Positions 28,264 through 46,217 of a stretch of DNA of 64,000 nt are shown here, piece after piece. Numbering within the stretch: position 1 is the stretch's first letter; every line of letters begins with the position of its first letter. Location of the stretch: the NCBI RefSeq assembly GCF_000819565.1, contig NZ_CP004393.1:2852001-2916000 (forward strand), written 5' to 3'. The notes beneath the pieces were generated by a model. The model ran no database searches, was not told the origin of the DNA, and saw only the letters and a program-made list of their open reading frames with translations. The position numbers and the translations under genes are program-made. The DNA is from Celeribacter indicus. GTDB taxonomy: Bacteria > Pseudomonadota > Alphaproteobacteria > Rhodobacterales > Rhodobacteraceae.

Positions 28264-28280
28264 CGTCCGAAATTCGGACA
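28264..28280. promoter_or_regulatory. Dyad operator upstream of acxR
   Basis: CGTCCG-AAATT-CGGACA; the inner 15 bp GTCCGAAATTCGGAC is a palindrome around a central A. It lies about 150 bp upstream of the regulator start and matches the dyads upstream of adh and acxABC in half-site and 11-bp spacing, suggesting autoregulation. Confidence 0.6.
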
Positions 28281-28400
28281 AATGCGCGCATCCCCGCCAC
28301 CGAGGCGCGGGAAACATCGGGCGCGGCGGCCGTCCCAAGGGTGCGGTCCTCCGCCGCCCGGACAGGCGAACCGAGAGGATCGCATGAGGGCCGCCCCGCC

Positions 28401-31834: not shown

Positions 31835-31865
31835 GCCGCCTCCACCGCAGATTTTTGGTCTACTT

Positions 31866-31877
31866 TTGGAATACCAA
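31866..31877. promoter_or_regulatory. GntR-type operator upstream of the SDR-hydantoinase operon
   Basis: TTGGAATACCAA, identical to the site upstream of the NIPSNAP gene and one base from the perfect TTGGTATACCAA upstream of the second nitrilase operon. It lies 32 bp before the SDR start codon, a position that fits repression. FCD-type GntR proteins typically bind GT-N(1-3)-AC dyads of this kind. Confidence 0.65.
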
Positions 31878-32126
31878 TTGAGTATCGGATCCGCAACGCG
31901 CGGGTGGCAGGCGGCACGGTCATCGCTGCCGCCGCGGCGGGATTGCACAAAATCCGGGCAGGAGCGCGTGCGGCGGGGGCAAGCTGCCGGCTCTTCGCGA
32001 CAGGGGGAACGGTTTGAACGCCCATGCAAAAGACGGCAATCCGTGCCCGCCTCTTCCCCTGTCACGTCCCGCCTCGCGCCCACCGGCGAACCGGCGCGTG
32101 CGATTTCCGCTGGACGTGCACGCCAA

Positions 32127-32158
32127 TGGCATTCTAATGGTATTCCATAATGATACCA
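32127..32158. promoter_or_regulatory. Operator cluster upstream of the DapA-like gene
   Basis: TGGCATTCTA (32127-32136) and TGGTATTCCA (32138-32147) are spaced 11 bp, followed by the half-site GATACCA (32152-32158). All are variants of the TGGTATACCA palindrome found upstream of the other units of this region. Confidence 0.55.
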
Positions 32159-32180
32159 AGGTTCCGAACGGAGTAGACCC

Positions 32181-32318
32181 ATGACAGACACAATTCGTGC
32201 GACGCGCGCCGCGCCCCCGCCCCTTGCCCGAAGACCCGCCGGAACGACGAGATCTCCCCGCCCCTCCGCACGCCGTGGCGGCAAAGCTTCCCACATCAGG
32301 ACAAGCTCATGCCTTTGA
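32181..32318 (+). CDS. Possible 45-codon upstream reading frame
   Basis: ATG at 32181 preceded by CGGAG at a usable distance, encoding an Arg-rich peptide (MTDTIRATRAAPPPLARRPA at its start) with no recognisable family. Its stop at 32316-32318 lies just inside the DapA-like gene in another frame. It may be a leader or chance; codon content alone cannot decide. Confidence 0.2.
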   Translation: MTDTIRATRAAPPPLARRPAGTTRSPRPSARRGGKASHIRTSSCL

Positions 32319-33235
32319 TACATTCCGGGACGCAGGGCGTCTTCGTCATCAGCGTCACCCCTTTCGGCGAGGACGGGACGCTCGACCGCGACAGCCTCGC
32401 GCGGGTCACCGATTTCTACCTCGAGAAGGGCGCGGACGGGCTCACGGTCCTCGGCATGATGGGCGAGGCGCCCAAGCTCTCGGCCGAGGAAAGCCGGGAG
32501 GTCGTCCGCATCACCCTCGCGCGGTCGGGCGAGGCGCCGGTGGTGGTGGGGATTTCCGCGCCCGGCCTCGCGGCGATGCGCGATCTGGCGGGATTCGCGA
32601 TGGACGCGGGCGCCGGCGGCGTCATGGTCGCGCCCCCCTCCACGCTGGAAACCAACGAGCAGATCGTCACCTATTACGCCAATGTGGTGGAGGCCGTCGG
32701 CCCGGATGTGCCCCTCGTCCTTCAGGATTTTCCGCTCTCGACGAAGGTGCGCATCTCGAACGGCACGCTCGGCGCGATCCTCGAGGCGACCCCCTCGGTC
32801 GTGATGCTGAAACACGAGGACTGGCCGGGCCTTGAAAAGATCACCGCCCTGCGCGCGGCCGAGGCGGCGGGACGCCGGCGCACCTCGATCCTCTGCGGCA
32901 ATGGCGGGATTTTCCTCACCGAGGAGATGGCGCGCGGTGCCGACGGGGCGATGACCGGGTTCGGCTTCCCGGAGATGATGCGGGACGTGGTCGCGCTCTC
33001 CCGGCAGGGGCAGACGGACCGGGCGCAGGACATCTTCGATGCCTATCTGCCGCTCGTACGCTACGAACAGCAGCCGGGGCTCGGCCTCAGCCTGCGCAAA
33101 TACGTGCTGGCCAAGCGCGGGGCCATCGCCTCCGCCGCCCTGCGCAAGCCGGGCGGATCCCTGTCGGCGGCGGCGGTCGCCGAGGTCGAGCGCCTGCTCG
33201 ACCGTCAGGCCCGACGGCTGGCCGAGCTGGCATAG
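32309..33235 (+). CDS. DapA/N-acetylneuraminate-lyase-family protein
   Basis: 308 residues with the DHDPS-like TIM barrel. The Schiff-base lysine is in VVMLKHEDWPG (about residue 170). Two catalytic features of true dihydrodipicolinate synthase are changed: GTTGE is GMMGE, and the YNxP motif is QDFP. It is therefore more likely a catabolic aldolase, lyase or dehydratase than a lysine-synthesis enzyme. It is divergent from the SDR-hydantoinase operon, with GntR-type sites upstream, and convergent with the MFS gene. Confidence 0.85.
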   Translation: MPLIHSGTQGVFVISVTPFGEDGTLDRDSLARVTDFYLEKGADGLTVLGMMGEAPKLSAEESREVVRITLARSGEAPVVVGISAPGLAAMRDLAGFAMDAGAGGVMVAPPSTLETNEQIVTYYANVVEAVGPDVPLVLQDFPLSTKVRISNGTLGAILEATPSVVMLKHEDWPGLEKITALRAAEAAGRRRTSILCGNGGIFLTEEMARGADGAMTGFGFPEMMRDVVALSRQGQTDRAQDIFDAYLPLVRYEQQPGLGLSLRKYVLAKRGAIASAALRKPGGSLSAAAVAEVERLLDRQARRLAELA

Positions 33236-33243
33236 GCCCCCGC

Positions 33244-33267
33244 GCCGGGAGGCTCAGGCTTCCCGGC
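33244..33267. terminator. Stem-loop at the convergent DapA-like/MFS ends
   Basis: GCCGGGAGGC pairs with GCTTCCCGGC (one G-T pair) around TCAG. The loop contains the MFS stop codon. No T-tract follows, so termination is plausible only because of its place between convergent genes. Confidence 0.35.
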
Positions 33268-34669
33268 CGAACCCTTCGAGGCGGCGCGCCGGAAGGAAGA
33301 CCGCCGCCAGAAGGCACACCGCCATGAGCAGCGGCGCCACCACGCCGAACACGCCATGGCCCGCGCCCGCCCCGCCCTCGCTCAGCAGCCCGGCCCGCAG
33401 CGCACCGATCCCCGCCAGCGAGACGCCGAGCGTCCCCCCCATCGCGCGCAGAAAGGCCAGAACGCCCATTGCCGCGCCCATCTGTTCCGATGGCGCCGCG
33501 TTCTGCACGATCAGCGTATAGACCGGATAGAGCAGCCCGATGCCGATCCCGAGCCCGATATTGGACAGGATCACCACGGCGAAGGGCAGATCGAACAGCG
33601 TGCAGAGCCAGAAGGCGACCGCAAAGCCGAAGGTGAGCGCCGCGCAACCCACCATCAGCGGCTTGTAGGCCGGATTGGCCCGCAACAGCCGCGGCGGCAC
33701 ATAGGCCCCGGCCATGATCGCACCGACGAAGGCCAGGAGCGCGACCCCGGCGGCACCGGGATCGAGCCCGTGCACCTTCTGGAAATAGATCGGCAGGTAG
33801 ACCGCAAGGCCGAGGTTCGTCCCCTGCGTCATCGCGAGGCCCAGAGCGGCGAGGAAGATCGACGGATCGCGCAGCACCGGCAGCGGTACGAGCGGGTCCG
33901 CCTGGCTGAGCAGATGCCGCACGAAGACGACCCAGAACAGGGCGGCGGTCACGGCGAGGAGAAGGCCGCCGGGGCCGCCCTCCCCCGCGCGTTCGAGAAG
34001 GAGGATCGTCGGCGTCGCGGCGCAGAGCAGATAGAGCCCGCCGCGAAGGTCGAGCCTGCGTCCCTTGAGCGGCGCGCGCGAGGTGACCGCGGTCATCACG
34101 CCGAGGATCACCAGCGCCCCGAGCGGCAGGTTGAACCAGAAGACCCAGCGCCAGTCGAGCCATTCCGCGATCGCCCCGCCGACGACCGGGCCGAGCAGGC
34201 CGGCGGCGGCGAAGATCGTCGAGATATAGGCGCTGAACACCGCACGGTTCCGCATCGGGACGCGATCCGCGACGATGACGAAGGGCAATGACATCAGCCC
34301 CCCGGCCCCGGCCCCCTGAACGACGCGCGCCACGAGCAGCATCTCGAGCCGAAAGGACAGCGCGCAGAGCAGCGAGCCGAAGACGAAACAGGCGCTGGCG
34401 AGCAGCAGGGCGCTGCGGCGTCCGCGAATATCGGCAATCGCGCCATAGAGCGGTGCGGCCACGGTGGCGGCGAGCAGAAAGCCCGTCGTGAGCCAGGGCA
34501 CGAGCGGCCCGTCGCCCAGTTCCGCGATGATGCGGCCAAGCACCGGTCCCATGATCGTCTGCTCGAGCGCCGCCATGAAGATCGCGAGCAGGGCCGCCGC
34601 GAGGAGCCTCGGGGTGCCGCGTGCGAACAGGGTGGCGAGGGTGGCGCCGGGCCGGGATCCGTCCGTCAT
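33254..34669 (-). CDS. MFS transporter of the DHA2 (14-TM) type
   Basis: 471 residues, mostly hydrophobic, with DHA2 landmarks: IFMAALEQTIMGPVLGRI in the first helix, the A-loop motif ADIRGRRSALLL and the motif-C-like AAGLLGPVVGGAIAEWLDWR. Proteins of this type are proton-driven exporters of drugs or metabolites. It is 3 bp downstream of a GntR gene on the same strand, so the two are cotranscribed. It probably exports a toxic substrate or intermediate of the surrounding catabolic genes. Confidence 0.88.
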   Translation of the reverse strand: MTDGSRPGATLATLFARGTPRLLAAALLAIFMAALEQTIMGPVLGRIIAELGDGPLVPWLTTGFLLAATVAAPLYGAIADIRGRRSALLLASACFVFGSLLCALSFRLEMLLVARVVQGAGAGGLMSLPFVIVADRVPMRNRAVFSAYISTIFAAAGLLGPVVGGAIAEWLDWRWVFWFNLPLGALVILGVMTAVTSRAPLKGRRLDLRGGLYLLCAATPTILLLERAGEGGPGGLLLAVTAALFWVVFVRHLLSQADPLVPLPVLRDPSIFLAALGLAMTQGTNLGLAVYLPIYFQKVHGLDPGAAGVALLAFVGAIMAGAYVPPRLLRANPAYKPLMVGCAALTFGFAVAFWLCTLFDLPFAVVILSNIGLGIGIGLLYPVYTLIVQNAAPSEQMGAAMGVLAFLRAMGGTLGVSLAGIGALRAGLLSEGGAGAGHGVFGVVAPLLMAVCLLAAVFLPARRLEGFGREA

Positions 34670-34672
34670 GGT

Positions 34673-35377
34673 TCAGCGCCGGATGCCCAGCAGATAATCC
34701 ACGATCGCATCCCGCACGTTGTCCAGATGCTCGCCCATCAGCCGCCGCGACAGGGCCGCATCGGTTCCCGCCGTCGCGCGGATCAGCGCCCGGTGCTCGG
34801 TGCCGCCCGGCTCCAGCCGGTGCGAGATGCGGCTGGTGTTGAAGATATGCGTGCGGCGGCGCAGGTCGAGAATGGATTGCGCCAGGACCGGATTGCCCGC
34901 CGCCTCCGCGATGCTCTGGTGGACCAGATCGTCGACGGCCCAGTGCTGCGCGGAGGTGACATGGTTCGCGCCGAGGAGCGCGTCTATGGCCTGCTCGACC
35001 TCCGCGGCCTTTTCGGCACTGACATGTCCGGTGGCCCGCCCGGCGGCCTCGACCTCGAGAATGCGGCGCAGGTCGAGCAGGCGCACGTAATTCTCCAGTC
35101 CGATATCCGCCACGACGAGCTGGCGCTCCGGCCGGCGCACGATCAGCGCCTCCGCCTCCAGCCGGAACAGCGCCTCGCGCACGGGCGTGCGGGAGATCTC
35201 CAGCATCTGCGCGATCTTCCTCTCCTGAAGCGCGCTTCCCGGTTTCAGCTCCCCGGCCAGCATCAGGTCGAGAAGCCGGTTATAGGCGAAGTCGGACAGA
35301 TGTCCTTCGGCCACCTCCTCGCCGGCCCTGCGACGCGGCGCCGACACCGCGTCGGCCGCCATCCCGGTCTTCTGCAT
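34673..35377 (-). CDS. GntR-family (FCD domain) transcriptional regulator 1
   Basis: 234 residues. The winged helix includes KPGSALQERKIAQMLEISRT and PVREALFRLEAEALI; the C-terminal all-helical FCD domain has the metal-ligand pattern D..VHQSIAE and DLRRRTHIFN. The second GntR of this region (44240) has the same DLRRRTH-FN segment, so the two are paralogues. It is divergent from nitrilase gene 1, with a TTGGTATACCA site between them, and upstream of the MFS exporter. Confidence 0.9.
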   Translation of the reverse strand: MQKTGMAADAVSAPRRRAGEEVAEGHLSDFAYNRLLDLMLAGELKPGSALQERKIAQMLEISRTPVREALFRLEAEALIVRRPERQLVVADIGLENYVRLLDLRRILEVEAAGRATGHVSAEKAAEVEQAIDALLGANHVTSAQHWAVDDLVHQSIAEAAGNPVLAQSILDLRRRTHIFNTSRISHRLEPGGTEHRALIRATAGTDAALSRRLMGEHLDNVRDAIVDYLLGIRR

Positions 35378-35582
35378 GACACGTCTCCCGATGTTGTCCT
35401 GTTCTCATCTCCGCCGGAACGTGGCAGAATTCATTTTGTTTCAGTGTCCTACGCGACAGGCGACGACCGCGGCCGGACCCTGCCCGACCACTTGCCCAAT
35501 CCGTTGGCACTTTTGTCCGGCGAAGGGGAAAACCCCTCCTGCACCGCAGTTTTCGGCTTGACGCCCCGCGCCGGAACGCTTC

Positions 35583-35593
35583 TTGGTATACCA
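35583..35593. promoter_or_regulatory. GntR-type operator between GntR 1 and nitrilase 1
   Basis: TTGGTATACCA, containing the perfect 10-bp palindrome TGGTATACCA, 56 bp before the nitrilase start. It matches the sites at 31866, 44041 and 45044. Confidence 0.65.
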
Positions 35594-35649
35594 CAGGAAC
35601 ACCTAAAGTCCACACGCATTTGTTGCGAGAAGATCCCGAGGAGACCGCA

Positions 35650-36675
35650 ATGACACTCGCCCCCTGGCGCGCCACATGCCTTCAGGTCGAAAGCAGGATT
35701 GCCTGCACCGCACGAAACAAGGAAGACACCTGGAAGATCATCGACGGCAACCTTGCGCGCGCCGTCGCCATGATCGTCGCGGCCTGCGAGGGCCCGACCC
35801 CGCCGAAGCTGGTCGTCCTCCCCGAATTCGCCTTTCAGGGACCGCCGCGCGCCGTGCCGGTCGAGGACTGGATCGCGCGCGCCTGCACCACCATGCCGGG
35901 GCCGATCACCGACCGGCTGGCGGATGTGGCGAAGAAATACGGCATCTTCATCGCCGGCAACCATTTCGAGGTGGATCCGAGATGGCCCGACCGCTATTTC
36001 AACTCCTCCTTCTGCCTCGATCCCGACGGCGAGATGATCCTGCGCTATCGCCGGATCAACACGGCAAGCTGGACCTCGCCGCATGACATCCTCGAGGACT
36101 ATCGCGCCGCCTATGGCGACGAAGGGATCTATCCCGTCGCGGACACGGAACTCGGCAGGCTCGCGATCTTCCCCTGCGGCGAGATTTCCGTCCCCGAGAT
36201 TTCCCGCATGTTCATGATGCGCGGCGCCGAGGTGCTGCTCCACCCGAACAACGAACCCCTGAGCCCGACCTCCGATGCGGCGAAGATCTGCCGCGCCGCC
36301 GAGAACATGTGCTACCTGATTTCCGCCAATGTCGCCGGGACCGCCGGCTTCTCCGACACGCTCACCGGCGGGCATTCGCAGATCGTCGACTTCCGCGGCC
36401 AGGTGCTCTCGCTTGCCGAGGGCGCGGAGGAAACGCTCGAATGCTCGGCGATGATCGACATCGGGGCGCTTCAGGCGGCGCGGCGCGACACGGGCATGGG
36501 CAACGGGCTGATGCGGTCGCGCTGGGAGATGTATCGCAGCTCCTACGGGACGGCCGATTTCTATCCCGCGAACGGGCTGGCGGAAAAGGCCATCCAGACT
36601 GCCGACGACTTCGGAGACCTGCATGAACGCGCGCTCCGCAACCTCGAAGCCTCCGGCGTGCTGCGCCCGTCCTGA
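35650..36675 (+). CDS. Nitrilase-superfamily amidohydrolase 1
   Basis: 341 residues from the ATG at 35650 (GAGGAG upstream). The catalytic Glu is in VLPEFAFQGPP and the nucleophile Cys in FPCGEISVPE. The usual catalytic Lys of the YRK motif is Arg (ILRYRRIN), and the same change is in the paralogue at 42905. C-N hydrolases of this superfamily cleave amides, nitriles or N-carbamoyl groups. Divergent from GntR 1; likely the first gene of a unit read through to the importer genes downstream, although a palindrome-rich gap follows. Confidence 0.85.
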   Translation: MTLAPWRATCLQVESRIACTARNKEDTWKIIDGNLARAVAMIVAACEGPTPPKLVVLPEFAFQGPPRAVPVEDWIARACTTMPGPITDRLADVAKKYGIFIAGNHFEVDPRWPDRYFNSSFCLDPDGEMILRYRRINTASWTSPHDILEDYRAAYGDEGIYPVADTELGRLAIFPCGEISVPEISRMFMMRGAEVLLHPNNEPLSPTSDAAKICRAAENMCYLISANVAGTAGFSDTLTGGHSQIVDFRGQVLSLAEGAEETLECSAMIDIGALQAARRDTGMGNGLMRSRWEMYRSSYGTADFYPANGLAEKAIQTADDFGDLHERALRNLEASGVLRPS

Positions 36676-36718
36676 GCGGCCCCGTTCCTCCTCCGCCGGC
36701 AGGTCTTCCGGCAGGACT

Positions 36719-36753
36719 GCCGAAAATTTCGGCATCTCCGTAAAATTTCGGAG
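36719..36753. promoter_or_regulatory. Tandem AT-rich palindromes after nitrilase 1
   Basis: GCCGAAAATTTCGGC (36719-36733) and CTCCGTAAAATTTCGGAG (36736-36753) share the core CCG-AAAATTT-CGG. They may be tandem operator sites for the downstream binding-protein promoter or a weak double hairpin ending the nitrilase transcript. Confidence 0.4.
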
Positions 36754-36790
36754 GAGGACACCCCTCCCGCCTTTGACCGTGACACACCAC

Positions 36791-36811
36791 TGGCATACCA
36801 TTTAAATGCCA
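36791..36811. promoter_or_regulatory. GntR-type operator upstream of the SsuA-like gene
   Basis: TGGCATACCA (36791-36800) lies within a larger dyad TGGCAT-N9-ATGCCA (36791-36811), 36 bp before the binding-protein start. It is one base from TGGTATACCA. Confidence 0.6.
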
Positions 36812-36846
36812 CACAAACCCAGATATAGCCATCCAACAGGGTCAAA

Positions 36847-37851
36847 ATGAAGCTCACCTTCCCTCTCAGCACAGCTTTCGGCGCCATGCTCCTCGGCACC
36901 ACCATCGCGGCCGCTCCGCTTTCGGCGCAGGACCTCGAGGACCTGCGCCTGCGCCTCGCCTGGATCGCGGGCGGGGTCGACGCGGCCTTTTTCGTGGCCG
37001 ATGAAAAGGGCTATTTCGCGGAAGCCGGCCTCGATGTGGAGATCGTCGACGGCAATGGCTCCACCGGCACGATCCAGGCCGTCGGCAACGGCGATTTCGA
37101 CATCGGCATCGCCGGCCTCGGCGCCCTCGCCCAGGCGCGGCAGGCCTCCGGTGCCACCGACCTCATCGCCATCGCCGGTCTTGTCCAGAAGGACCCGACC
37201 TCGATCATCAGCCTCGAAGGCTCCGGCATCCGGACGCCGAAGGACATCGAAGGCAAGCGCCTCGGCACCGATGCCGGCAATCTCGAGGACGGCATGATCC
37301 GGGCCTTTGCCGAGGCAAATGGCGTGGACATGGACAAGATCGAGATCGTCGTCATCAACGGCGGCGCCGACCGGGTCGCGCTCCTGAAGGGCGATGTGGA
37401 CTTCATCAACGGCTGGGCCAACCCCGACGGCGACAAGGTCGCCGCCATCAGGCCGATCGAGCCGCCGCTCCTGTTCGCCGATCACGGCGTCAACATCCTC
37501 GGCTCCTCGGTGATCGTGAAGAAGGACTTCCTCGCCACGCATGAAGCGGAGATGACGGGGTTCCTCGCCGCCATCGCAAAGGCCAAGGCCGACGTCGACG
37601 CCGATCCCGAGGCCGCGCGCGACATCTTCATGGACCATCGGCCCGACGCGGATCCCGAGGCGATCCTCATGCAGATCAAAACCATGGCGAAATACGAGCA
37701 TACTGCCGCAACCGAGGGCAAATCCTATGGCGTGCTCGCCCCGGAAGACATCGAACTGACCATTTCCCTGCTGGAGAAATACAGTGGGATGGCGCCTGGC
37801 CTGACCCCCGACGACCTTTATTCCGCCGCCTATCTGTCGGCCGAAGACTGA
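36847..37851 (+). CDS. NMT1/SsuA-type ABC transporter substrate-binding protein
   Basis: 334 residues with a signal peptide ending near PLSAQ and the SsuA/TauA-like blocks LAWIAGGVDAAFFVADEKGY, GYFAEAGLDVEIVDG and FDIGIAGLGALAQA. Ligands of the family are small organic molecules such as taurine, sulfonates, pyrimidine precursors and aromatic acids. It is followed by a hairpin, an SDR gene, then the ATPase and permease of the same importer. Confidence 0.88.
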   Translation: MKLTFPLSTAFGAMLLGTTIAAAPLSAQDLEDLRLRLAWIAGGVDAAFFVADEKGYFAEAGLDVEIVDGNGSTGTIQAVGNGDFDIGIAGLGALAQARQASGATDLIAIAGLVQKDPTSIISLEGSGIRTPKDIEGKRLGTDAGNLEDGMIRAFAEANGVDMDKIEIVVINGGADRVALLKGDVDFINGWANPDGDKVAAIRPIEPPLLFADHGVNILGSSVIVKKDFLATHEAEMTGFLAAIAKAKADVDADPEAARDIFMDHRPDADPEAILMQIKTMAKYEHTAATEGKSYGVLAPEDIELTISLLEKYSGMAPGLTPDDLYSAAYLSAED

Positions 37852-37868
37852 TCCCCCCGAAGACCTGC

Positions 37869-37889
37869 GTCCGGGCGACCGGCCCGGAC
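37869..37889 (+). other. Stem-loop after the SsuA-like gene
   Basis: GTCCGGGC pairs with GCCCGGAC around a 5-base loop, 18 bp after the binding-protein stop, with no T-tract. It probably stabilises or attenuates the transcript so that the binding protein exceeds the downstream products. Confidence 0.45.
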
Positions 37890-37908
37890 CCGACAAGAAA
37901 GACGACAC

Positions 37909-38697
37909 ATGGATTTTGGACTTTCCGGCAAACATGCGCTCGTGACGGGCGCGAGCTCCGGGCTCGGCCTCGCCATCGCCACGGCGCTCCTGGCCGAGGG
38001 CGCCTCCGTCACGCTGGGCGGGCGCTCCAGGGAGAAACTGGAGGCCGCGATCGCCGCGATGCCGGCGGATCTCGCCACACGCGCCGATGTCGCCGTTGCC
38101 GATTTCTCTGACCCCGATGCCGCGGAAACGCTGGTCGCCGGGGCAAAGCACCGCACCGGCAGCATCGACATCCTCGTCGCCAACACCGGCGGTCCGCCCC
38201 CCGGCTTGCCCAGCGGCGTCGATCCGGCGGTGATGGAACGGCAGTACGGCGCGATGGTCGATCCCGTGATCCGCATGACGCTCCTCGTGCTGCCCGGCAT
38301 GCGCGAGCGCACATGGGGACGGATCCTGACCGTGACCTCATCGGGCGTGGTGCAGCCGATCCCGCACCTGCCGATGTCGAACGCGCTGCGCGCCTCGGTC
38401 ACCGCCTACATGAAGACGCTGGCCGGCGAAGTCGCGAAGAACGGCGTCACCGTCAACATCCTCGCGCCGGGGCGGATTTCCACCGCCCGCACGGCCCAGC
38501 TCGACCAGACCGCGGCCACGAAGGCCGGCAAGACGGTCGAGGACATCGCAACCGCCTCCGCCGCCTCGATCCCGGCGGGACGCTATGGCACGCCGGAGGA
38601 ATTCGGCGCCGTCGCGGCTTTCCTGGCCAGCACCCAGGCAAGCTACGTCACCGGAAGCATCCTTCGGGTCGATGGCGGAGCGATCCGCTCGATCTGA
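37909..38697 (+). CDS. SDR-family oxidoreductase with SxxxxN-type active site
   Basis: 262 residues. TGASSGLG near residue 14, VANTGG instead of NNAG, and in place of YxxxK the segment HLPMSNALRASVTAYMKTL. This SNALR variant occurs in a large group of FabG-like SDRs and is distinct from the degenerate SDR at 30552. It lies inside an importer operon, between the binding protein and the ATPase, so its substrate may be the imported compound or an early product. Confidence 0.85.
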   Translation: MDFGLSGKHALVTGASSGLGLAIATALLAEGASVTLGGRSREKLEAAIAAMPADLATRADVAVADFSDPDAAETLVAGAKHRTGSIDILVANTGGPPPGLPSGVDPAVMERQYGAMVDPVIRMTLLVLPGMRERTWGRILTVTSSGVVQPIPHLPMSNALRASVTAYMKTLAGEVAKNGVTVNILAPGRISTARTAQLDQTAATKAGKTVEDIATASAASIPAGRYGTPEEFGAVAAFLASTQASYVTGSILRVDGGAIRSI

Positions 38698-38741
38698 GCC
38701 CCGGCACGGGACTCGGACACCATCAACAGGGACCGGCCGGA

Positions 38742-39578
38742 ATGCCGGAATGCAAAATGAACATCATGACAGATACGCAAGCTCTCCCCCCGGTGAGCGA
38801 CGCACATGTCCGTATCGAGAATGTCAGCAAGGTTTTCCATGGCGGTCGCAAAGGGGACGTCGAAGCCCTGCGCCCGGTCAGCCTCGACATCGAACGCGGC
38901 GAGTTCGTCTCCATCCTCGGCCCGTCCGGCTGCGGGAAATCCACGCTCCTGATGCTGCTCTCGGGTCTGCTCGACGCCTCGGCGGGCAATATCAGGATCG
39001 ACGGCGAAAAGGTGCAGGGCCCGAAATCCGATCTCGGCATCGTGTTCCAGCAGGACGTTCTGCTCGAATGGCGCGGCGCGCTCGACAACGTGCTGCTTCA
39101 GGCGGAGATCCGCGGGGCGGACATGAAGGCGGCCGAGGTCAAGGCGCGCGAACTTCTGTCCATGGTCTCACTCACCGGCTTCGAGGACGCCTATCCGCGC
39201 GAATTGTCCGGCGGGATGCGCCAGCGCGTCTCGATCTGCCGCGCGCTGCTGCACGAGCCGCCGCTGCTGCTGATGGACGAGCCCTTCGGCGCGCTCGACG
39301 CGATGACCCGCGACCAGCTCCAGATCGACCTGATGAAGCTCTGCGCCGAACGCGACATGACCGTGTTCTTCATCACCCACTCGATCCCCGAGGCGGTCTT
39401 CCTGTCCGACCGCGTGGTGGTGATGACGCCGCGTCCCGGCCGCATCGAGGAGATCGTCGAGATCGACCTGCCCCGCCCGCGCCGCCTCGCGATGCGCGAA
39501 GACCCGAAATTCACCTCCTACGTCCGGCAGTTGACCAACACGTTCAAGTCGCTCGGCGTGTTCAGAGAGGAATACTGA
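38742..39578 (+). CDS. SsuB/TauB-type ABC transporter ATP-binding protein
   Basis: 278 residues from the ATG at 38742, which has AGGGA nine bases upstream; ATGs at 38757 and 38766 are alternatives. Walker A GPSGCGKST, Q-loop FQQDVLLEW, signature LSGGMRQRVSICRAL, Walker B LLLMDEPFGALD and switch FITHSIPEA are all intact. It powers the importer formed with the permease that starts one base after its stop. Confidence 0.92.
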   Translation: MPECKMNIMTDTQALPPVSDAHVRIENVSKVFHGGRKGDVEALRPVSLDIERGEFVSILGPSGCGKSTLLMLLSGLLDASAGNIRIDGEKVQGPKSDLGIVFQQDVLLEWRGALDNVLLQAEIRGADMKAAEVKARELLSMVSLTGFEDAYPRELSGGMRQRVSICRALLHEPPLLLMDEPFGALDAMTRDQLQIDLMKLCAERDMTVFFITHSIPEAVFLSDRVVVMTPRPGRIEEIVEIDLPRPRRLAMREDPKFTSYVRQLTNTFKSLGVFREEY

Positions 39579-39579
39579 G

Positions 39580-40398
39580 ATGACATCCGTGCCCGACCAT
39601 TCCCCCCGCATCCGCTCCGACGTCCTGCGCCGCATCGGCGAGATCGTCCCGCCCGCCCTCTGGACCCTGCTGATTCTGGTGATCTTCTGGCAGGCCATCG
39701 TGACGCTCAGGAACATCCCGGAATACATCCTGCCCGCGCCGAGCCAGATCGCCGGCGAGATCGGCTCCTATTGGCACAGGCTCCTGCCGAACGCGCTGGT
39801 GACGCTGAGCGAGATCGCGCTCGGCTATACGCTCGCCGTGCTGATCGCCGTGCCGCTCGCCGTGGCGATCGTCTATTCGCGGGTGATGCAGCGCGCGGTC
39901 TACCCGCTCATCGTGCTCAGCCAGACGGTCCCGAAAGTCGCCGTCGCGCCGCTGCTGCTGACATGGTTCGGCTATGGCATGACGCCGAAGATCGTCATCG
40001 TGATCATGATGTCCTTCTTCCCGATCGTCATCAACTCGGTGATGGGGCTGCGTGCGACGACGCCGGAAATGCTCTACCTCGCGAAATCCATGGGCGCGAA
40101 CGGCTGGCAGATCTTCTGGAAATTCCGTCTGCCGAAGGCCCTGCCCTCGGTCTTCGCGGGCCTGCGCCTGGCGACCGTCCTCTCGGTGATCGGCGCGATC
40201 ATCGCGGAATTCATCGGCGCGGACAGGGGGCTCGGCTATCTCATCCTCATCGCCGGCGCCAATTTCGACATCGCCCGCCAGTTCGCCGCGATCATCCTGA
40301 TCACGGTCATGGGGATGAGCTTCTTCGGCATCATCTCCTGGCTCGAGCGGCGCATGATCCCCTGGCAGGAACAGTCGGAGCTCGGCGGCAAGGGCTGA
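39580..40398 (+). CDS. SsuC/TauC-type ABC transporter permease
   Basis: 272 residues with about six membrane helices and family blocks PSQIAGEIGSYWHRLLPNAL, LIVLSQTVPKVAVAPLLLTW and the EAA loop AKSMGANGWQIFWKFRLPKA. Start ATG at 39580 is one base after the ATPase stop. Last gene of this importer unit, followed by a strong terminator. Confidence 0.93.
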   Translation: MTSVPDHSPRIRSDVLRRIGEIVPPALWTLLILVIFWQAIVTLRNIPEYILPAPSQIAGEIGSYWHRLLPNALVTLSEIALGYTLAVLIAVPLAVAIVYSRVMQRAVYPLIVLSQTVPKVAVAPLLLTWFGYGMTPKIVIVIMMSFFPIVINSVMGLRATTPEMLYLAKSMGANGWQIFWKFRLPKALPSVFAGLRLATVLSVIGAIIAEFIGADRGLGYLILIAGANFDIARQFAAIILITVMGMSFFGIISWLERRMIPWQEQSELGGKG

Positions 40399-40425
40399 GC
40401 CCGCCTCCGACATGCAAACCAACAG

Positions 40426-40454
40426 CCCCGGCCGGACACGGTCGGGGATTTTTT
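40426..40454 (+). terminator. Rho-independent terminator after the importer genes
   Basis: CCCCGGCCG pairs with CGGTCGGGG (one G-T pair) around GACA, followed by six T residues (40449-40454), 28 bp after the permease stop. Confidence 0.85.
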
Positions 40455-40508
40455 CGCTCCGGGCGGCGTCCCGCACCGAAAGGCCGACCGGACCCCGTGC
40501 GCCGTGCG

Positions 40509-40535
40509 AAAAAAATCCCCCGCCGAAGCGGGGGA
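40509..40535 (-). terminator. Rho-independent terminator of the Rieske oxygenase operon
   Basis: On the minus strand TCCCCCGC-TTCG-GCGGGGGA (40516-40535) is followed by seven T residues (40509-40515). The tetraloop and 8-bp GC stem are ideal. It ends the transcript about 30 bp after the reductase stop. Confidence 0.9.
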
Positions 40536-40565
40536 CCAGGGGAACCGTCAGGGAACGGGACGAGG

Positions 40566-41564
40566 TCAGAGATCAAGGACGAGACGCTCCGACAGCGCCC
40601 GCGAGCAACAGATCAGCATGGTCTTGCCGCTCTCGCGCTCCCGGTCCGACAGGATCATGTCGCGGTGATCCGGCACGCCCTCGAGCACGCGGGTCTCGCA
40701 GGTGCCGCAGACGCCGGACTGGCAGGAATAAGCCACGCGCACACCTTCCGCCCGCAGCACCTCCATGATGCTCTTGCCCTCGGGAATGAAAAACTCGCGG
40801 CCCGACCGGCGCAGCTCCACGGTGAAGCCGCCGCCGGAGATATCCGCCTCGCCCGCAAAGCGTTCGAGATGCACCTGATCGTCCGGGAAACCGGCCGCCG
40901 CCGTCTCGTAGGCGTCGAGCATGGGAGCCGGCCCGCAGGCATAGAGATGCGCCTCCCGCGGCACGGCGGCCAGCCAGGCGGCGAGATCGGGATGCGCGCC
41001 GCCGGCCGCATCGTCGAAATGCAGCGTCACGCGCCCCCGCCCGGCGTCGAGCGCCGCGATCTCGGGCAGGAAGGCGGCGTCCTCCCGGCTCCGCGCCGCG
41101 TAGAGAAGCGTCCAGTCGCCGCCGCGCACCTCCAGATGCCGCAGCATCGACAGGATCGGCGTGATCCCGATCCCGCCCGCGATGAAGGCCGACGGCGCCC
41201 CGCCCGGCGCCATCTCGAAAGTGTTGCGCGCCGGGGAAACCCCGAGCGTGTCGCCCACGCGCAGGGTCTCGCAAAGCCAGGCCGAGCCGCCCGCACTGTC
41301 GGGCGCGCGATGCACCGCCACCCGGTAGCAATCGGTGCAGTCCGGCCCGTTGGTCAGCGAATAGCTTCGCGTCAGACCGCCGGGCAGGGAAAGGTCGACA
41401 TGCCCGCCCGGAGCAAGTCCGGGCAGGCAGTCCGTTCCGTCCGTCGCCCGCAACTCGATCTCCCGGACCGCAGGGGCGAGCCAGCGGATCGCGTGAACCC
41501 GCATCTCCATCTGCTCCGGCCCGGCGGGGGTCTCTGTCGGGGGGATGACGAAGGCCTTGGTCAT
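40566..41564 (-). CDS. Oxygenase reductase with FMN/NAD and [2Fe-2S] domains (VanB/phthalate-dioxygenase-reductase type)
   Basis: 332 residues. The FMN-binding segment RSYSLTNGP (about 85-93), the NAD-binding block AFIAGGIGITPILSMLRHL and the C-terminal plant-type ferredoxin domain with CQSGVCGTC (about residues 279-287) plus a fourth Cys in ICCSRAL are present. It transfers electrons from NADH to the adjacent Rieske oxygenase, with which it overlaps by four bases (ATGA). Confidence 0.92.
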   Translation of the reverse strand: MTKAFVIPPTETPAGPEQMEMRVHAIRWLAPAVREIELRATDGTDCLPGLAPGGHVDLSLPGGLTRSYSLTNGPDCTDCYRVAVHRAPDSAGGSAWLCETLRVGDTLGVSPARNTFEMAPGGAPSAFIAGGIGITPILSMLRHLEVRGGDWTLLYAARSREDAAFLPEIAALDAGRGRVTLHFDDAAGGAHPDLAAWLAAVPREAHLYACGPAPMLDAYETAAAGFPDDQVHLERFAGEADISGGGFTVELRRSGREFFIPEGKSIMEVLRAEGVRVAYSCQSGVCGTCETRVLEGVPDHRDMILSDRERESGKTMLICCSRALSERLVLDL

Positions 41565-42895
41565 TCGGCCGCGTCTTTCGGCGGGAGGTAGCCCTTGACC
41601 CTGGCCATGTGCTCCTCGTAGCCCTCGAGCCAGTCGGTGCCCTTCGGCACGACGATATCACCGCCATGGGCCTGCCGGGCATATTCGGGATGATCGACGA
41701 ACTCCGGCAGTTCCCGGTTGTCGCGCCAGGCCAGCGCCGCATCGAGCATGACGCGGCGGGTCAGGATCACCATCCGGTCGGAGGCGGCGAGATGTTCGAG
41801 CGTGCGGTCGACGATATGGCCCATGCTCTCCTGAATCGCCTGATCCTGGAGCGGCACGCCGACGATGCCCGTGTAGCTGTCGCCCGAGCGCTGCCAGTCG
41901 CGGTCGATGCCGTAATCGTTGGATGCGTCTTTCACCGGACGCCAGCGGCCCTTCCAGTCCGGCGTGACCGGCAGGTATTCGAGCGGGCGCTCCAGCCCCT
42001 TCACCGGGGACCCGTCCTTGTATTTGAGCTTTTTCTTGCCTCCGCCCGCCGCGCGCGACAGGTCGATGTTGAAGATCATGCAGCTGTCGTCGTCGATCGG
42101 CACCCAGGCGTTCGCGGTCTTCGCCTCGCCCAGCTCGCCGCCGCCCGGATAGGTCACCCAGAACGGGAAAAGGTAGGAGGCATAGCGCTGGTGTTCATGG
42201 CCTTCCATCGCGTCGCGCTGCGCCGAATACATCGTGCCGAACGGCATGACGGAGACGTTGATCTTCGGCGCCTTCTCGGTGACCGTGTAGGTCTCCGGGT
42301 CGGACATGTCGAGCTTCTCGCCGTCGATCCCGCCCATGTGCAGGAAGCCCAGGTGCGAAGTGTCGATATCGCCTTCGAGCGCCTGCATGTAGTTGCAGTC
42401 GCGGTGGGTCAGCGCGATGTTGCGGTCGTCGCCCTCTCCCATGATCGCCTCGATCTCCGGAAGCGGCGGCGGGTTGTCCTGCCGTTCCCCGAAATAGGCA
42501 AAGACGAGACCGCCGGATTCGCAGGTCTTGTAGGCGATGGCCGGCGTGCCCGCGGGATATTTGGTCTTGTCCTCGAGGTTCGGCTGGTCGAGACATTTGC
42601 CCGTCACGTCGAATTTCCAGCCGTGATAGGCACAGCGGATGCCGCCATGTTCGTTGCGGCCGAAGAACAGCGAGGCGCAGCGGTGCGGGCAGCGGTGATC
42701 CATCACCCCCACGCGCCCTTCGCTGTCGCGAAAGCCGATCAGCTTTTCCCCCAGGATCATCAGGCGCACCGGGTCGCCGTCGGCGACCAGTTCGGACGAC
42801 ATGCAGACGGGGATCCAGAACTGACGGAAGAACTCTCCCATCAGCGTGCCCTTTCCGACGCGGCAAAGGTCGACGTTTTCTTCTGCGGTGATCAT
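41561..42895 (-). CDS. Rieske non-haem iron oxygenase, alpha subunit (VanA/phthalate 4,5-dioxygenase type)
   Basis: 444 residues. The Rieske [2Fe-2S] ligands are Cys69-x-His71 and Cys88-x2-His91 (CPHRC and CAYHGW). The catalytic iron region includes the bridging-Asp block EGDIDTSHLGFLH. This clade contains O- and N-demethylases and aromatic-ring oxygenases without a beta subunit. It starts 9 bp after nitrilase 2 and is coupled to its reductase. The product would then be opened or deamidated by the hydrolases of the region. Confidence 0.92.
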   Translation of the reverse strand: MITAEENVDLCRVGKGTLMGEFFRQFWIPVCMSSELVADGDPVRLMILGEKLIGFRDSEGRVGVMDHRCPHRCASLFFGRNEHGGIRCAYHGWKFDVTGKCLDQPNLEDKTKYPAGTPAIAYKTCESGGLVFAYFGERQDNPPPLPEIEAIMGEGDDRNIALTHRDCNYMQALEGDIDTSHLGFLHMGGIDGEKLDMSDPETYTVTEKAPKINVSVMPFGTMYSAQRDAMEGHEHQRYASYLFPFWVTYPGGGELGEAKTANAWVPIDDDSCMIFNIDLSRAAGGGKKKLKYKDGSPVKGLERPLEYLPVTPDWKGRWRPVKDASNDYGIDRDWQRSGDSYTGIVGVPLQDQAIQESMGHIVDRTLEHLAASDRMVILTRRVMLDAALAWRDNRELPEFVDHPEYARQAHGGDIVVPKGTDWLEGYEEHMARVKGYLPPKDAAE

Positions 42896-42904
42896 GTGTC
42901 TCTC

Positions 42905-43993
42905 CTATAGTTCGACTGTGGAAACCGGCTCTTGCGCCCCCGGTGCGAGGGGCGCGAGAATGCCGGCCTGTTCGAGATTTCTGCGGGCCTGCGCGACGGC
43001 GGCCTCGGTCTGGCGCACGTCGGTCATCGGAGCCTCGAGGAACATGTCCGGCGGGTAGAATTTCGCCTCTGCATAGAAGGGCACGTAGAGCTCGTAGCGG
43101 GCCCGCAGATGCGGATTGCTCAACCCGCTGTCCGCGCGCCGGTCGCGGCGCAGCCTCTCGATGTCGATCAGGGCGCTGACGGAAACGCTCTCCCCCGCCC
43201 CGTCCTCGAAGGCGAGCGTCTGCCCGAGATGGTCGAGGATATGGGAGCGTCCCCCCTGATGCGTGCCGTCGGGCGAAAACCCGATGGCGCCCGCGATATT
43301 GGCGGAGACGAGATATGTCATGTTCTCCGCGACACGGGCCAGTTTCGCGGCCTCCTGCGCATCGGAATGACGCGAATTGGTCGGGTGGAGGATCACCTCC
43401 GCCCCCTGCATCATCATCACCCGCGCCACCTCGGGCACGTTGATCTCGCCGCAGGGAATGACCCCGAGCTTGCCCAGCGGCGTGTCGGCCACCGGGAAGA
43501 TCTCCTCGCGCGGCGTGACGGCGAGGTAATCGGTCATGAAATCGTGGACGGAGGGAAAGGCCGCCGTGTTCAGCCGCCTGTAGCGCAGGATCACCTCCCC
43601 CGTCGGGCCGATGATGAAGGAGGTATTGAAATACCGTCCCGGCCATTCCGGCGGCGCCTCGAAGGCATTGCCGCAAATATAGATGCCTTCGCGCGCGGCA
43701 AGCGCCTGCAACGGTTCGGTGAGCCAACCCGGCACGGGCGAACAGGCCCGCTCGATCCAGGTTTCGACCGCCATGCCGAGCGGCGGGCCCTGCATCGCGA
43801 ATTCGGGGAAGACCACCAGATCGGGCTTTTGTTCCGAGGCGCAGGCCGCCTCGATCAGGCCGACGAGTTTTGCGCGGTTGCGCGCGATCAACGCGCGGGC
43901 GCTGTCGAAATCGGGCGCCTGCGAGGCGCGCTCACCGAGCATCTGGATACAGGTCGCACGCCAGGGGCGCGGGGACTGCGTCTTGAGTGTCAT
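42905..43993 (-). CDS. Nitrilase-superfamily amidohydrolase 2
   Basis: 362 residues, a clear paralogue of the protein at 35650. Catalytic Glu in VFPEFAMQGPP and Cys in IPCGEINVPE; the Lys position is again Arg (ILRYRRLN). It is the first gene of the nitrilase-oxygenase-reductase operon, divergent from GntR 2, with a perfect TTGGTATACCAA 48 bp upstream of its start. Two such enzymes suggest two successive amide or carbamoyl hydrolyses, or two related substrates. Confidence 0.86.
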   Translation of the reverse strand: MTLKTQSPRPWRATCIQMLGERASQAPDFDSARALIARNRAKLVGLIEAACASEQKPDLVVFPEFAMQGPPLGMAVETWIERACSPVPGWLTEPLQALAAREGIYICGNAFEAPPEWPGRYFNTSFIIGPTGEVILRYRRLNTAAFPSVHDFMTDYLAVTPREEIFPVADTPLGKLGVIPCGEINVPEVARVMMMQGAEVILHPTNSRHSDAQEAAKLARVAENMTYLVSANIAGAIGFSPDGTHQGGRSHILDHLGQTLAFEDGAGESVSVSALIDIERLRRDRRADSGLSNPHLRARYELYVPFYAEAKFYPPDMFLEAPMTDVRQTEAAVAQARRNLEQAGILAPLAPGAQEPVSTVEL

Positions 43994-44040
43994 GTGCGTC
44001 TTTCACTTGTCTGGGGCGGGCCGAGTCGTATTGCCCACCA

Positions 44041-44052
44041 TTGGTATACCAA
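44041..44052. promoter_or_regulatory. Perfect GntR-type operator between nitrilase 2 and GntR 2
   Basis: TTGGTATACCAA, a perfect 12-bp palindrome, lies between the divergent oxygenase operon and GntR gene 2, close to the former. It is the best match to the consensus of this region. Confidence 0.7.
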
Positions 44053-44239
44053 AGACTTCACGAAGACGGAGCGGATTTCAAGACGCAATTCCGGAAAAGC
44101 CTTATCCGGGCGATTTCATCGGACGGTTGCGCAAAAACTGATCATTGCCGCGTGACATACTGGCGGAATACTGTGTAAAAACCAAAATCTGTACCACCAT
44201 GAGGACCCGTCATCCCGGACGGGAGGACGACATAGCGCA

Positions 44240-44917
44240 ATGACCGAAGCATCACCACTCACGCCCCAGGGGCAGGCCGGCAAACCGAACCTGACGGAAC
44301 AGGTCTATGAGCAACTCATCCAGATCCTCATCAGCGGCGAACTGCGTCCCGGCGACGTGATCGTGGAGCGCAAGATCGCGGATCGGCTGAATGCCTCGCG
44401 CACGCCGGTGCGTGAAGCCCTCGGACGCCTCGAAGCCGAGCGGCTGGTGTTCAAGCAACCCAACCGCGGCGTCACCGTCAGCCCGTTTTCCACCGAGGCG
44501 CTGATCGAGATCCTGAACGTCCGCCAGCTTCTCGAATCCGAGGCGGCGCGGCTCGCCGCCGGCCGGATCCCCTCCCACACGATCGAGAAGATCCGCGCGC
44601 GCATGCTCGAACTCAGCGAAAGATCCTCGGTCACCCTTGCCGAGACCTGGGAGGTCGACGACCAGCTTCACACCGCAATCGCCGAGGCGTCCGGCAACAG
44701 CCTCATGGCCGGGCTGATCCGGGACCTGCGCCGGCGCACCCATGTCTTCAACGCCTACCGCAATCCGCATGAGTCGCGCTTCGACGCGCGGGAGAACCTC
44801 TTCGTGCTCGACATGGTCGCCAGCGGCGATGCGGAGAAGGCGCGCGCGGCGATGAACGACCACATCAACTCCGTCAAGGTCGCGATCATCAACCGGCTCA
44901 CCGGCGTCTCCCTCTGA
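44240..44917 (+). CDS. GntR-family (FCD domain) transcriptional regulator 2
   Basis: 225 residues. DNA-binding domain with RPGDVIVERKIADRLNASRT and PVREALGRLEAERLV, then an FCD domain with DDQLHTAIAEASGN and DLRRRTHVFN. It is paralogous to the regulator at 34673. Divergent from the nitrilase-oxygenase operon, and followed by its own terminator. It or its paralogue should bind the TTGGWATACCAA sites; sequence alone cannot tell which. Confidence 0.9.
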   Translation: MTEASPLTPQGQAGKPNLTEQVYEQLIQILISGELRPGDVIVERKIADRLNASRTPVREALGRLEAERLVFKQPNRGVTVSPFSTEALIEILNVRQLLESEAARLAAGRIPSHTIEKIRARMLELSERSSVTLAETWEVDDQLHTAIAEASGNSLMAGLIRDLRRRTHVFNAYRNPHESRFDARENLFVLDMVASGDAEKARAAMNDHINSVKVAIINRLTGVSL

Positions 44918-44950
44918 CATCCTCGCCCCCGAGCGACCGCCCCTTCTGAC

Positions 44951-44975
44951 AGCCCCCCCTTGCGGGGGCTTTTTT
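44951..44975 (+). terminator. Rho-independent terminator of GntR gene 2
   Basis: AGCCCCC pairs with GGGGGCT around a 6-base loop, followed by a run of T residues (44970-44975). Confidence 0.8.
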
Positions 44976-45043
44976 GCGTCCGGCGCCTGCTACCCGGCAC
45001 GCCGGATCGGGCCTTGCGCGCCCCCGGATTTTATGGAACACGT

Positions 45044-45055
45044 TTGGAATACCAA
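45044..45055. promoter_or_regulatory. GntR-type operator upstream of the NIPSNAP gene
   Basis: TTGGAATACCAA, identical to the site at 31866, 27 bp before the start codon at 45083. Confidence 0.65.
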
Positions 45056-45082
45056 TCGCACACCAAACGTCGGACAGATGAC

Positions 45083-45697
45083 ATGATCTATGAAATCACC
45101 ACCCTGGCCCTGCTCCCGAACCGGCTTGGCGCCGTCATGCCCATGCTCGGCGAGGTCTGCGGCAAGGCCGCGCCCTCGGGAGAGCTGCTTGGCTGCTTCT
45201 CCGTCGAGTTCGGCGCGCTGAACCGCTTCCATCTCCTCGCGAAATACGACAGCACCGAGGCGCTCTTTGCCGACCGCGCAAAGCGGGTCGAGCAGACCGA
45301 TCCCTACGGCATCACCGAACATCTCGGCGACGTCTCCCGCACCGCCTACAGACCGCTCTCCTTCTCGAAGGAGATCGCTCCCGGCGATTTCGGCCCGTTC
45401 TACGAATTCCGCACCTACACCGTGGCCCCCAACGGCCTGGCGGAAACCGAGCAGGCCTGGGCGAAGGTCATCGCGGAACGTGACGCCATGTCGCCGCTGC
45501 TGGGCATCATGGGCTCGATCGAGGGCGCGCCGAAGAAGATGGTCCATATCTGGCCCTACCGGAGCATCGAGGAGCGGGTGAAGGCCCGCGCAAAGGCATC
45601 GAAAGCCGGGATCTGGCCGCCGCCCGGCGGCTCTGCACAGCTCACTTCGCTCACCTCGGAACTGACCGTGGCGACTGCCGCGTCGGCGCTGACATGA
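45083..45697 (+). CDS. NIPSNAP-family protein
   Basis: 204 residues with two alpha-beta ferredoxin-like repeats: the first starts MIYEITTLALLPNRLGAVMP, the second FYEFRTYTVAPNGLAETEQA (about residue 110). Proteins of this family occur in many bacterial catabolic clusters but their biochemical role is not settled. The start at 45083 is favoured because homology begins there; the earlier frame runs through the preceding terminator. It overlaps the RidA gene by four bases. Confidence 0.85.
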   Translation: MIYEITTLALLPNRLGAVMPMLGEVCGKAAPSGELLGCFSVEFGALNRFHLLAKYDSTEALFADRAKRVEQTDPYGITEHLGDVSRTAYRPLSFSKEIAPGDFGPFYEFRTYTVAPNGLAETEQAWAKVIAERDAMSPLLGIMGSIEGAPKKMVHIWPYRSIEERVKARAKASKAGIWPPPGGSAQLTSLTSELTVATAASALT

Positions 45698-46155: not shown

Positions 46156-46178
46156 GACGGCAGCCGGAGCGGGAGACG

Positions 46179-46216
46179 CCCCCTGTCCGCGCCGCAAGGG
46201 AGGCGCGGACAGGGGG
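46179..46216. terminator. Long perfect hairpin between RidA and cytochrome c genes
   Basis: Fifteen bases at 46179-46193 pair perfectly with 46202-46216 around an 8-base loop. There is no T-tract on either side. It lies between convergent genes and probably protects or ends both transcripts. Confidence 0.5.
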
Positions 46217-46217
46217 G

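Follow-up and report, generated by a model that had tools for sequence, protein, structure and literature searches.

The stretch of DNA analysed here is a 64-kb window of the 4.97-Mb genome of Celeribacter indicus (NZ_CP004393.1; C1:2852001-2916000), and by "the window" we mean the whole of it, with positions counted from its first letter. Between 29039 and 46155 it carries a gene cluster that includes two FCD-type GntR regulators, GntR1 and GntR2, and palindromes of the type TTGGWATACCAA lie in front of its transcription units. We propose that the palindrome is the operator of these two candidate repressors and makes the cluster one regulon, a reading to which we give a probability of about 0.78. 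The predicted functional unit is an array of two or three palindromes offset by exactly 11 bp, about TTGGNATNCCANTGGNATNCCAA; the initial annotation, which took a single 12-bp palindrome as the unit, had overlooked this arrangement.

The gene cluster and its promoter arrays

The gene map was drawn from Pfam and NCBIfam (SDR, short-chain dehydrogenase/reductase; sources or scores in brackets):

29039-30502, minus strand: dihydropyrimidinase/hydantoinase-like amidohydrolase (PRK13404.1, 713.9 bits, and TIGR02033, 486.5 bits, both above cut-off)
30552-31157, minus strand: SDR0 (Pfam)
31160-31834, minus strand: SDR1 (Pfam)
32309-33235, plus strand: DapA-like lyase, DHDPS family (PF00701, 105 bits)
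33254-34669, minus strand: MFS transporter, downstream of GntR1 (PF07690, 160.6 bits)
34673-35377, minus strand: GntR1, FCD-type GntR regulator, candidate repressor, 234 amino acids (Pfam)
35650-36675, plus strand: Nit1, nitrilase-superfamily amidohydrolase (PF00795, 109.5 bits)
36847-37851, plus strand: SsuA/NMT1-type binding protein (Pfam, NCBIfam and frame reading for the operon 36847-40398)
37909-38697, plus strand: SDR2
about 38763-39578, plus strand: ABC ATPase
39580-40398, plus strand: ABC permease
40566-41564, minus strand: reductase (Pfam, NCBIfam)
41561-42895, minus strand: Rieske oxygenase with a LigXa_C domain (Pfam, NCBIfam)
42905-43993, minus strand: Nit2 (Pfam, NCBIfam)
44240-44917, plus strand: GntR2, FCD-type GntR regulator, candidate repressor, 225 amino acids (Pfam)
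44951-44970, plus strand: terminator-like hairpin 3' of GntR2
45083-45697, plus strand: NIPSNAP protein (Pfam)
45694-46155, plus strand: RidA/YjgF protein (Pfam)

The initial annotation regarded these genes as otherwise unrelated, but they recur together in other loci as a catabolic cluster. Of the named records that have the cluster, a locus of Celeribacter persicus (L046) is the closest, its GntR2 being 92% identical, and among the same-genus genomes searched only one, G004, has GntR2 (92%, contig 28). The set of oxygenase, amidohydrolases, RidA, SDR and importer is reminiscent of the Rut uracil pathway in its layout, a Rieske oxygenase taking the position of RutA. Literature searches on homarine, Rieske and GntR, on NIPSNAP, Rieske, nitrilase and RidA, and on the cluster content returned no paper on this cluster by title or abstract among the matches listed.

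All six palindrome sites of the initial annotation are present and real. Exact copies of TTGGWATACCAA lie at 31866, 44041 and 45044, and the site at 35583 (TTGGTATACCAC) deviates by one mismatch; "near-identical" is thus a fair description of four sites, but a generous one for those at 32137 (ATGGTATTCCAT, two or three mismatches depending on the strand) and 36790 (CTGGCATACCAT, three mismatches). Likewise, what had been described as a degenerate cluster at 32127-32158 does hold sites, but is actually an array of three palindromes. Read with a tandem score for adjoining dyads, the six promoters look as follows (class sizes include the window):

31855-31877, promoter of SDR1-SDR0-hydantoinase: TTGGTCTACTTTTGGAATACCAA; two dyads (31855, 31866) and a very weak third one (31877); tandem score 26.5
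32126-32159, promoter of the DapA-like gene: dyads at 32126, 32137 and 32148; tandem scores 29.9 and 21.6; class consensus GGtATTCTA[aTGGTATgCCA.] (9 promoters)
35583-35605, common to the divergent units GntR1-MFS and Nit1: TTGGTATACCACAGGAACACCTA; tandem score 20.8; class consensus [TTGGTATTCCA.]TgGaACACc (14 promoters)
36779-36812, promoter of the SsuA-type importer operon (SsuA-SDR2-ATPase-permease): dyads at 36779, 36790 and 36801; tandem scores 20.0 and 17.5; class consensus gATAtTCC.[tTGGCATACCaT].tGAATGCCA
44030-44052, common to the divergent units Nit2-Rieske-reductase and GntR2: ATTGCCCACCATTGGTATACCAA; tandem score 23.5; class consensus aTTGCACgCCA[.TGGTATACCA.] (19 promoters)
45033-45066, promoter of NIPSNAP-RidA: dyads at 45033, 45044 and 45055; tandem scores 28.4 and 24.0 (class of 19 promoters)

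With transcription units defined by gene order and strand, it is true that the palindrome precedes every unit from the hydantoinase operon (29039) to RidA (46155). The hairpin behind GntR2 implies that the array at 45033 probably serves a unit of its own, though a single terminator-like hairpin is weak evidence, because the region 31000-46500 holds 11 such sites compared with 7.9 +/- 2.8 in shuffles. Beyond the two ends of the cluster, neither the gene for a sigma-54-type regulator (26323-29103) nor a cytochrome c gene (46218) has a tandem site of at least 10. The former, which encodes an activator with a GAF domain, overlaps with the end of the hydantoinase gene and has no operator of its own.

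The array of the importer operon overlaps a sigma70-like pair, TTGACC-N17-TACCAT at 36773-36801, whose -10-like TACCAT falls within the central dyad; three -35/-10-like pairs were found in the scanned stretch, compared with 1.3 +/- 1.1. In all 16 promoters of the SsuA class, that of the window included, TACC(A/G)T is preceded by TTGAC at a distance of 17-18 bp.

Conservation and 11-bp phase of the palindromes

A matrix built from the six window sites alone was run on 20 other alphaproteobacterial loci (L046-L065), which had been found via GntR2. Counting was restricted to tblastn matches of at least 45% identity with at least 100 bp upstream; the common region of a divergent gene pair was counted twice, and near-identical strains (L049, L051-L053) were retained. 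At 14 bits or more, the matrix finds a site in 86 of the 105 upstream regions of genes that are first in their operon in the window, as opposed to 3 of the 112 upstream regions of operon-internal genes (two SDR2 regions, in L051 and L052, and one Rieske region, in L057). In 176,711 bases of coding DNA from these related loci there was no match at this threshold and there were three at 12 bits or more. The initial annotation had suggested such a scan, and had named equally good matches in coding DNA of the genome, or a lack of conservation upstream of orthologues, as grounds for abandoning the idea; on these related loci, neither was seen. Among 720 symmetric permutations of the matrix columns, only the true matrix and an equivalent swap of two G columns reach 86, the next-best ones, which swap T columns, reach 81, and the mean is 1.6.

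Sites of at least 14 bits are nearly universal for Nit2 (19/19), GntR2 (20/20), GntR1 (9/9), Nit1 (10/12) and NIPSNAP (16/19), and are found for 10 of 16 SsuA genes, with five more at 12.3 bits. A second scan covered loci L066-L112. In L067, L069, L070, L072 and L085, in which SDR1 and DapA diverge as in the window, sites of at least 15.5 bits lie between both genes, and sites upstream of SDR1 were also found in L067, L069, L072 and L085. In the loci scanned, DapA homologues away from arrays (e.g., L068, L076, L078-L081, L086-L094) were without any site exceeding 10 bits. In four loci (L066, L071, L074 and L077), DapA is separated from the DapA-type array by a second SsuA-like gene, a more distant one of 26-31% identity.

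Within the window, the 12-mer at up to three mismatches gives 27 strand matches, compared with 13.4 +/- 4.4 in shuffles of the window, of which 1 in 100 reached this number, and the exact 12-mer occurs at four places in the whole genome, three of them within the cluster. The tandem score separates the promoters more clearly: 11 window positions score at least 10, all inside the six promoters, and the best value elsewhere in the window is 6.3. In 20 order-1 random sequences, there were 0.25 such positions per 64 kb, and the highest single score was 13.6.

The 11-bp phase was determined on sites hand-picked from the locus scans, the six window sites included. In a scan of offsets from -30 to +30 around 84 such sites, a second palindrome of at least 8.5 bits was present in a fraction of 0.21 at -11 and 0.12 at +11, and of at most 0.02 at any other offset. 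Two sites were later removed, since the promoters (of GntR2 in L057 and of SsuA in L063) are not orthologous. For the remaining 82, the class-weighted match, out of 10, is 8.8 at the site itself, 6.0 at -11, 5.1 at +11 and 3.3 at -22, as compared with 2.4 +/- 0.5 (maximum 3.8) at other offsets. With equal weight for the six promoter classes, this corresponds to z values over the other offsets of 6.9 at -11 and 5.2 at +11, and each of the six has its best companion at -11 or +11. The two or three dyads are also where column conservation peaks. An alternative dyad, with its centre at the CCA-N-TGG junction of adjoining units, was considered and rejected: its GT and AC would point outward, contrary to the FadR-subfamily consensus (PMC4494728), and the best-conserved unit is TGGNATNCCA.

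Outside the window, a 21-bp tandem pattern at up to three mismatches matches 16 places in the genome, of which nine belong to the cluster and three to a single other locus; the reversed control gives none. At that other locus, two overlapping places precede a gene for an accessory xanthine dehydrogenase subunit, xdhA (C1:2404746/2404757; L039:9746-9779), and one precedes the gene for a binding protein 66% identical to that of the cluster (C1:2409794; L039:14794-14816). The accessory xdhA is a second copy, with about 50% identity to the xdhA that most congeners have; its product (a 455-residue piece) and the accompanying XdhB exceed the NCBIfam cut-offs for xanthine dehydrogenase. Its promoter has a tandem score of 26.2, whereas the promoters of 17 other xdhA genes (16 from congeners and the second copy of this genome) reach at most 9.1, and at most 8.0 for a single site. 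The accessory xanthine dehydrogenase genes and the binding-protein paralogue are therefore likely members of the regulon in trans. In G004, nine of 16 tandem matches lie on the contig of the cluster. A further tandem match, at C1:2517369/2517380, is also seen in congeners and was set aside as background, as it lies within an esterase-like reading frame.

Some other matches are recorded here in their own right. Exact TTGGAATACCAA and ATGGTATACTAA lie 200 bp apart at C1:2166023 and 2166223 (L038:6024 and 6224), close to a gene for an SDR and to a divergent gene; they have no 11-bp companions and perhaps belong to another regulator. Pairs of 12-mer matches with identical spacing occur at C1:1803266/1805250 and 1869743/1871727, and again at 1052232/1053156 and 3778189/3779113 (the latter in reverse order), which suggests duplicated segments or insertion elements. 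Five xdhA promoters of congeners (L164, L170, L171, L173 and L175) share another inverted repeat, TTGG(A/C)ATATTC(G/A)GAAAATTCCA(A/G), a different putative operator.

GntR1, GntR2 and the probable reading of the arrays

GntR1 and GntR2 are the DNA-binding regulators found between 29039 and 46155. As had been supposed from the start, both are of the FCD type, exceeding the Pfam cut-offs for the N-terminal GntR winged helix-turn-helix domain (PF00392; 58.5 and 69.6 bits, respectively, cut-off 27) and for the C-terminal FCD domain (PF07729; 68.8 and 76.7 bits, cut-off 24.3). The spacing of GT and AC had also been read correctly, in that TTGGTATACCAA has TKGT/ACMA boxes with a spacing of 2 nt, within the 2-3 nt of FCD-type operators. 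The two proteins are 39% identical. The genome encodes 16 FCD proteins, and in a tree that holds 12 of the 14 others, the GntR1 and GntR2 clades (support 100/99 each) come out as one group, moderately supported (91/97) and separate from those 12, among which long branches were flagged. The motif SRTPxRE is present in 36/36 GntR1/GntR2 rows and in 1/12 of the other FCD proteins of the genome.

The search for distant relatives covered 385 genomes of the class, 398 of the phylum (with up to seven candidates scored per genome) and a plasmid collection, in which GntR2 at E <= 1e-40 found one record only. Four relatives of at least 140 bits (42-44% identity) lie outside the cluster, and in three of them an array precedes the relative's own gntR: L185 (TTGGAATTCCACTGGTATACCAA, tandem score 34.8), L184 (23.5) and L186 (14.3), values reached in 0/200 shuffles each. 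L184 is on a Variovorax plasmid, in a different cluster, and L186 shares no other query gene. By comparison, a tandem score of at least 14 is reached by one of 41 scored weaker FCD genes (L192, 105 bits) and by none of the 13 other FCD genes scored in this genome (L026 had no match and was unscored). The operator thus travels with the GntR1/GntR2 subfamily, and its presence beside three of the four distant relatives strengthens the assignment of an FCD regulator. Together with the upstream conservation, this supports the idea of one regulon, with direct contact between the two proteins and the arrays as the probable link.

Several observations weigh against this interpretation. Genome-wide, where loose matches were examined with the 12-mer pattern only, the 12-mer at up to two mismatches is not enriched (55 forward and 59 reverse matches versus 67 and 72 for the reversed control), so that the loose 12-mer by itself proves nothing; a single 12-mer is informative only if it is strict or read together with its 11-bp partner. 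Similarly, 18 congeners without the regulators have 5-20 tandem matches at up to three mismatches per genome (reversed control 0-7), which places this pattern near background outside the strong loci. At 14 bits, sites precede only two of eight DapA genes (six of eight are without) and neither of two SDR1 genes, in part because these genes sit inside another operon in several loci, and in L062 the SsuA gene is not preceded by a site (4.8 bits). Some promoters have a weak companion dyad, with 1.8 bits at 44030 and 2.1 bits at 35594. Among the distant relatives, L187 (43% identity, 167 bits) lacks the operator in its upstream region, and L185 is related to the cluster in its gene setting, since homologues of the hydantoinase (50%), DapA (50%) and SDR2 (41%) are common to both. 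Finally, good single sites also lie beside weaker FCD genes (L204, 15.5 bits; L197 and L200, 14.2 bits). As a separate matter, TTGGTATGCGAATTTGTATACAA precedes the gntR gene in L197 and L200 and may be a related operator that follows a different consensus.

By analogy with NanR of E. coli, the following mechanism may be envisaged. Each promoter has one strong dyad of the TTGGTATACCAA type and one or two weaker dyads 11 bp, i.e., one helical turn, away. Adjoining repressor dimers would then be in contact along one side of the double helix and would bind cooperatively. At the importer promoter, where the array covers the -10 hexamer, the bound repressor would block RNA polymerase. Binding of a pathway metabolite in the FCD pocket would release the repressor, and the arrays in the GntR1/Nit1 and Nit2/GntR2 intergenic regions would provide for autoregulation. 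More tentatively, one may imagine that the two FCD repressors, having diverged long ago, respond to different ligands and either compete for these arrays phased at one turn or assemble on them jointly, array length and the strength of each weak dyad setting a graded two-input response for each operon, including the accessory xanthine dehydrogenase in trans; this we consider doubtful.

Whether both paralogues would read every array is the point on which another view fares best. GntR2 alone may read all arrays, GntR1 having drifted to another function or reading only the GntR1/Nit1 array. An orthologue of GntR1 is found in 15 of the 19 genomes searched, and those without it (G071, G076, G077 and G079) still keep sites: in the corresponding loci (L057, L062, L063 and L065) GntR2 is retained with sites of at least 15.7 bits beside it, and L063 and L065 also retain sites at NIPSNAP, DapA and ABC-gene promoters, so that GntR2 alone seems able to maintain the pattern. 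GntR2 is moreover present in 20/20 loci, though these were chosen by GntR2. However, GntR1 has been kept in the 15 genomes; it has the SRTPxRE core in common with GntR2, and the array of its promoter is conserved. L185 and L186, which are nearer GntR1 than GntR2, also have the operator. We regard an exclusive role of GntR2 as possible, but as clearly less probable than a role of both regulators.

A second view concerns the operator itself. The 12-bp palindrome could be the whole operator and its 11-bp companion an accessory half-box as known for GntR regulators; Suvorova et al. (PMC4494728) describe weaker adjacent half-sites 7-12 nt from the centre of the site for 13 groups of the FadR subfamily, and one half of the companion is indeed weak in some promoters of our set. 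This is unlikely, since both halves are conserved in the SsuA class (3.2 and 4.4 of 5) and the DapA class (3.9 and 3.4 of 5), L185 has two full dyads at 11 bp, and -11 or +11 is the best offset throughout. It would be stranger still if both GntR genes were passengers and the arrays were read by a regulator encoded elsewhere. The genome has other FCD proteins to offer; yet the operator lies beside three of four distant GntR1/GntR2 homologues and beside no other scored FCD gene of the genome at a tandem score of at least 14, and GntR2 accompanies sites in all 20 loci, which makes this very improbable. A chance origin of the sites, or one from base composition, can be dismissed, as the unenriched loose genome-wide matches, which would fit it, stand against the matrix and column conservation, the tandem scores in the window versus random sequence and the 11-bp phase.

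If the arrays are indeed operators of GntR1 and GntR2, a collection of loosely named enzymes (a Rieske oxygenase, two nitrilases, a hydantoinase, three SDRs, a DapA-like lyase, RidA, NIPSNAP and an ABC importer) becomes one testable catabolic regulon, and the ligand of the two regulators would disclose the substrate of the pathway. The operator pattern can be used to find more genes of the pathway and has already led to the accessory xanthine dehydrogenase and the second binding protein. Furthermore, the fixed 11-bp phase offers a clear test of cooperative binding of FCD regulators on arrays of palindromes.

Comparison with known FCD-type systems

Searches of the literature gave no paper containing both TTGGTATACCAA and GntR, none about this operator by title among the matches listed for the shorter word TGGTATACCA, and none on tandem FCD operators matching at least five of six terms. 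No paper was found on this cluster or operator, although an entry in RegPrecise is possible. Neither regulator reaches the NCBIfam models of characterized relatives: GntR2 and GntR1 score 62.8 and 48 bits with the NanR model (cut-off 260) and 98.7 and 80.8 bits with the PhnR-type model TIGR03338 (cut-off 271.5). With the UxuR and ExuR models, GntR2 scores 51.5 and 42.6 bits (cut-offs 442 and 396), and neither was found for GntR1 at 1e-10. ExuR and UxuR are nonetheless instructive: they are paralogous FCD regulators whose operators resemble each other and which serve the same catabolic network, a situation like the one here in a different pathway. We know of no match between the content of the present cluster, with its Rieske oxygenase, two nitrilases, hydantoinase, NIPSNAP and RidA, and the regulons of UxuR, HpxS, HypR, MdcY, PrpR or GntR. 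The GGTATA repeats of NanR are spaced more closely than 11 bp.

In its operator, the system resembles members of the FadR subfamily, for which a comparative study (Suvorova et al. 2015, PMC4494728) describes TKGT/ACMA boxes whose GT and AC lie 3 nt apart or, for part of the groups, 2 nt apart. According to the same study, UxuR, HpxS, HypR, MdcY, PrpR and GntR combine, as here, FCD and GntR domains with a TKGT/ACMA palindrome of 2-nt spacing, divergent autoregulated regulator genes and extra boxes near the site. Unlike in these regulators, as far as they are described there, the companion here is a full dyad in several promoters and is fixed at 11 bp in all six promoter classes. NanR of E. coli (PMC8012715) is likewise an FCD repressor with GGTAT-type boxes in a close array, on which three dimers assemble cooperatively, its operator being (GGTATA)3. 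However, NanR reads direct GGTATA repeats, an arrangement that the present arrays do not show, each unit being a palindrome at 11 bp. The regulon is thus new and well supported, while the FCD-type kind to which it belongs is already known; it extends this kind by full companion dyads at a fixed distance of 11 bp.

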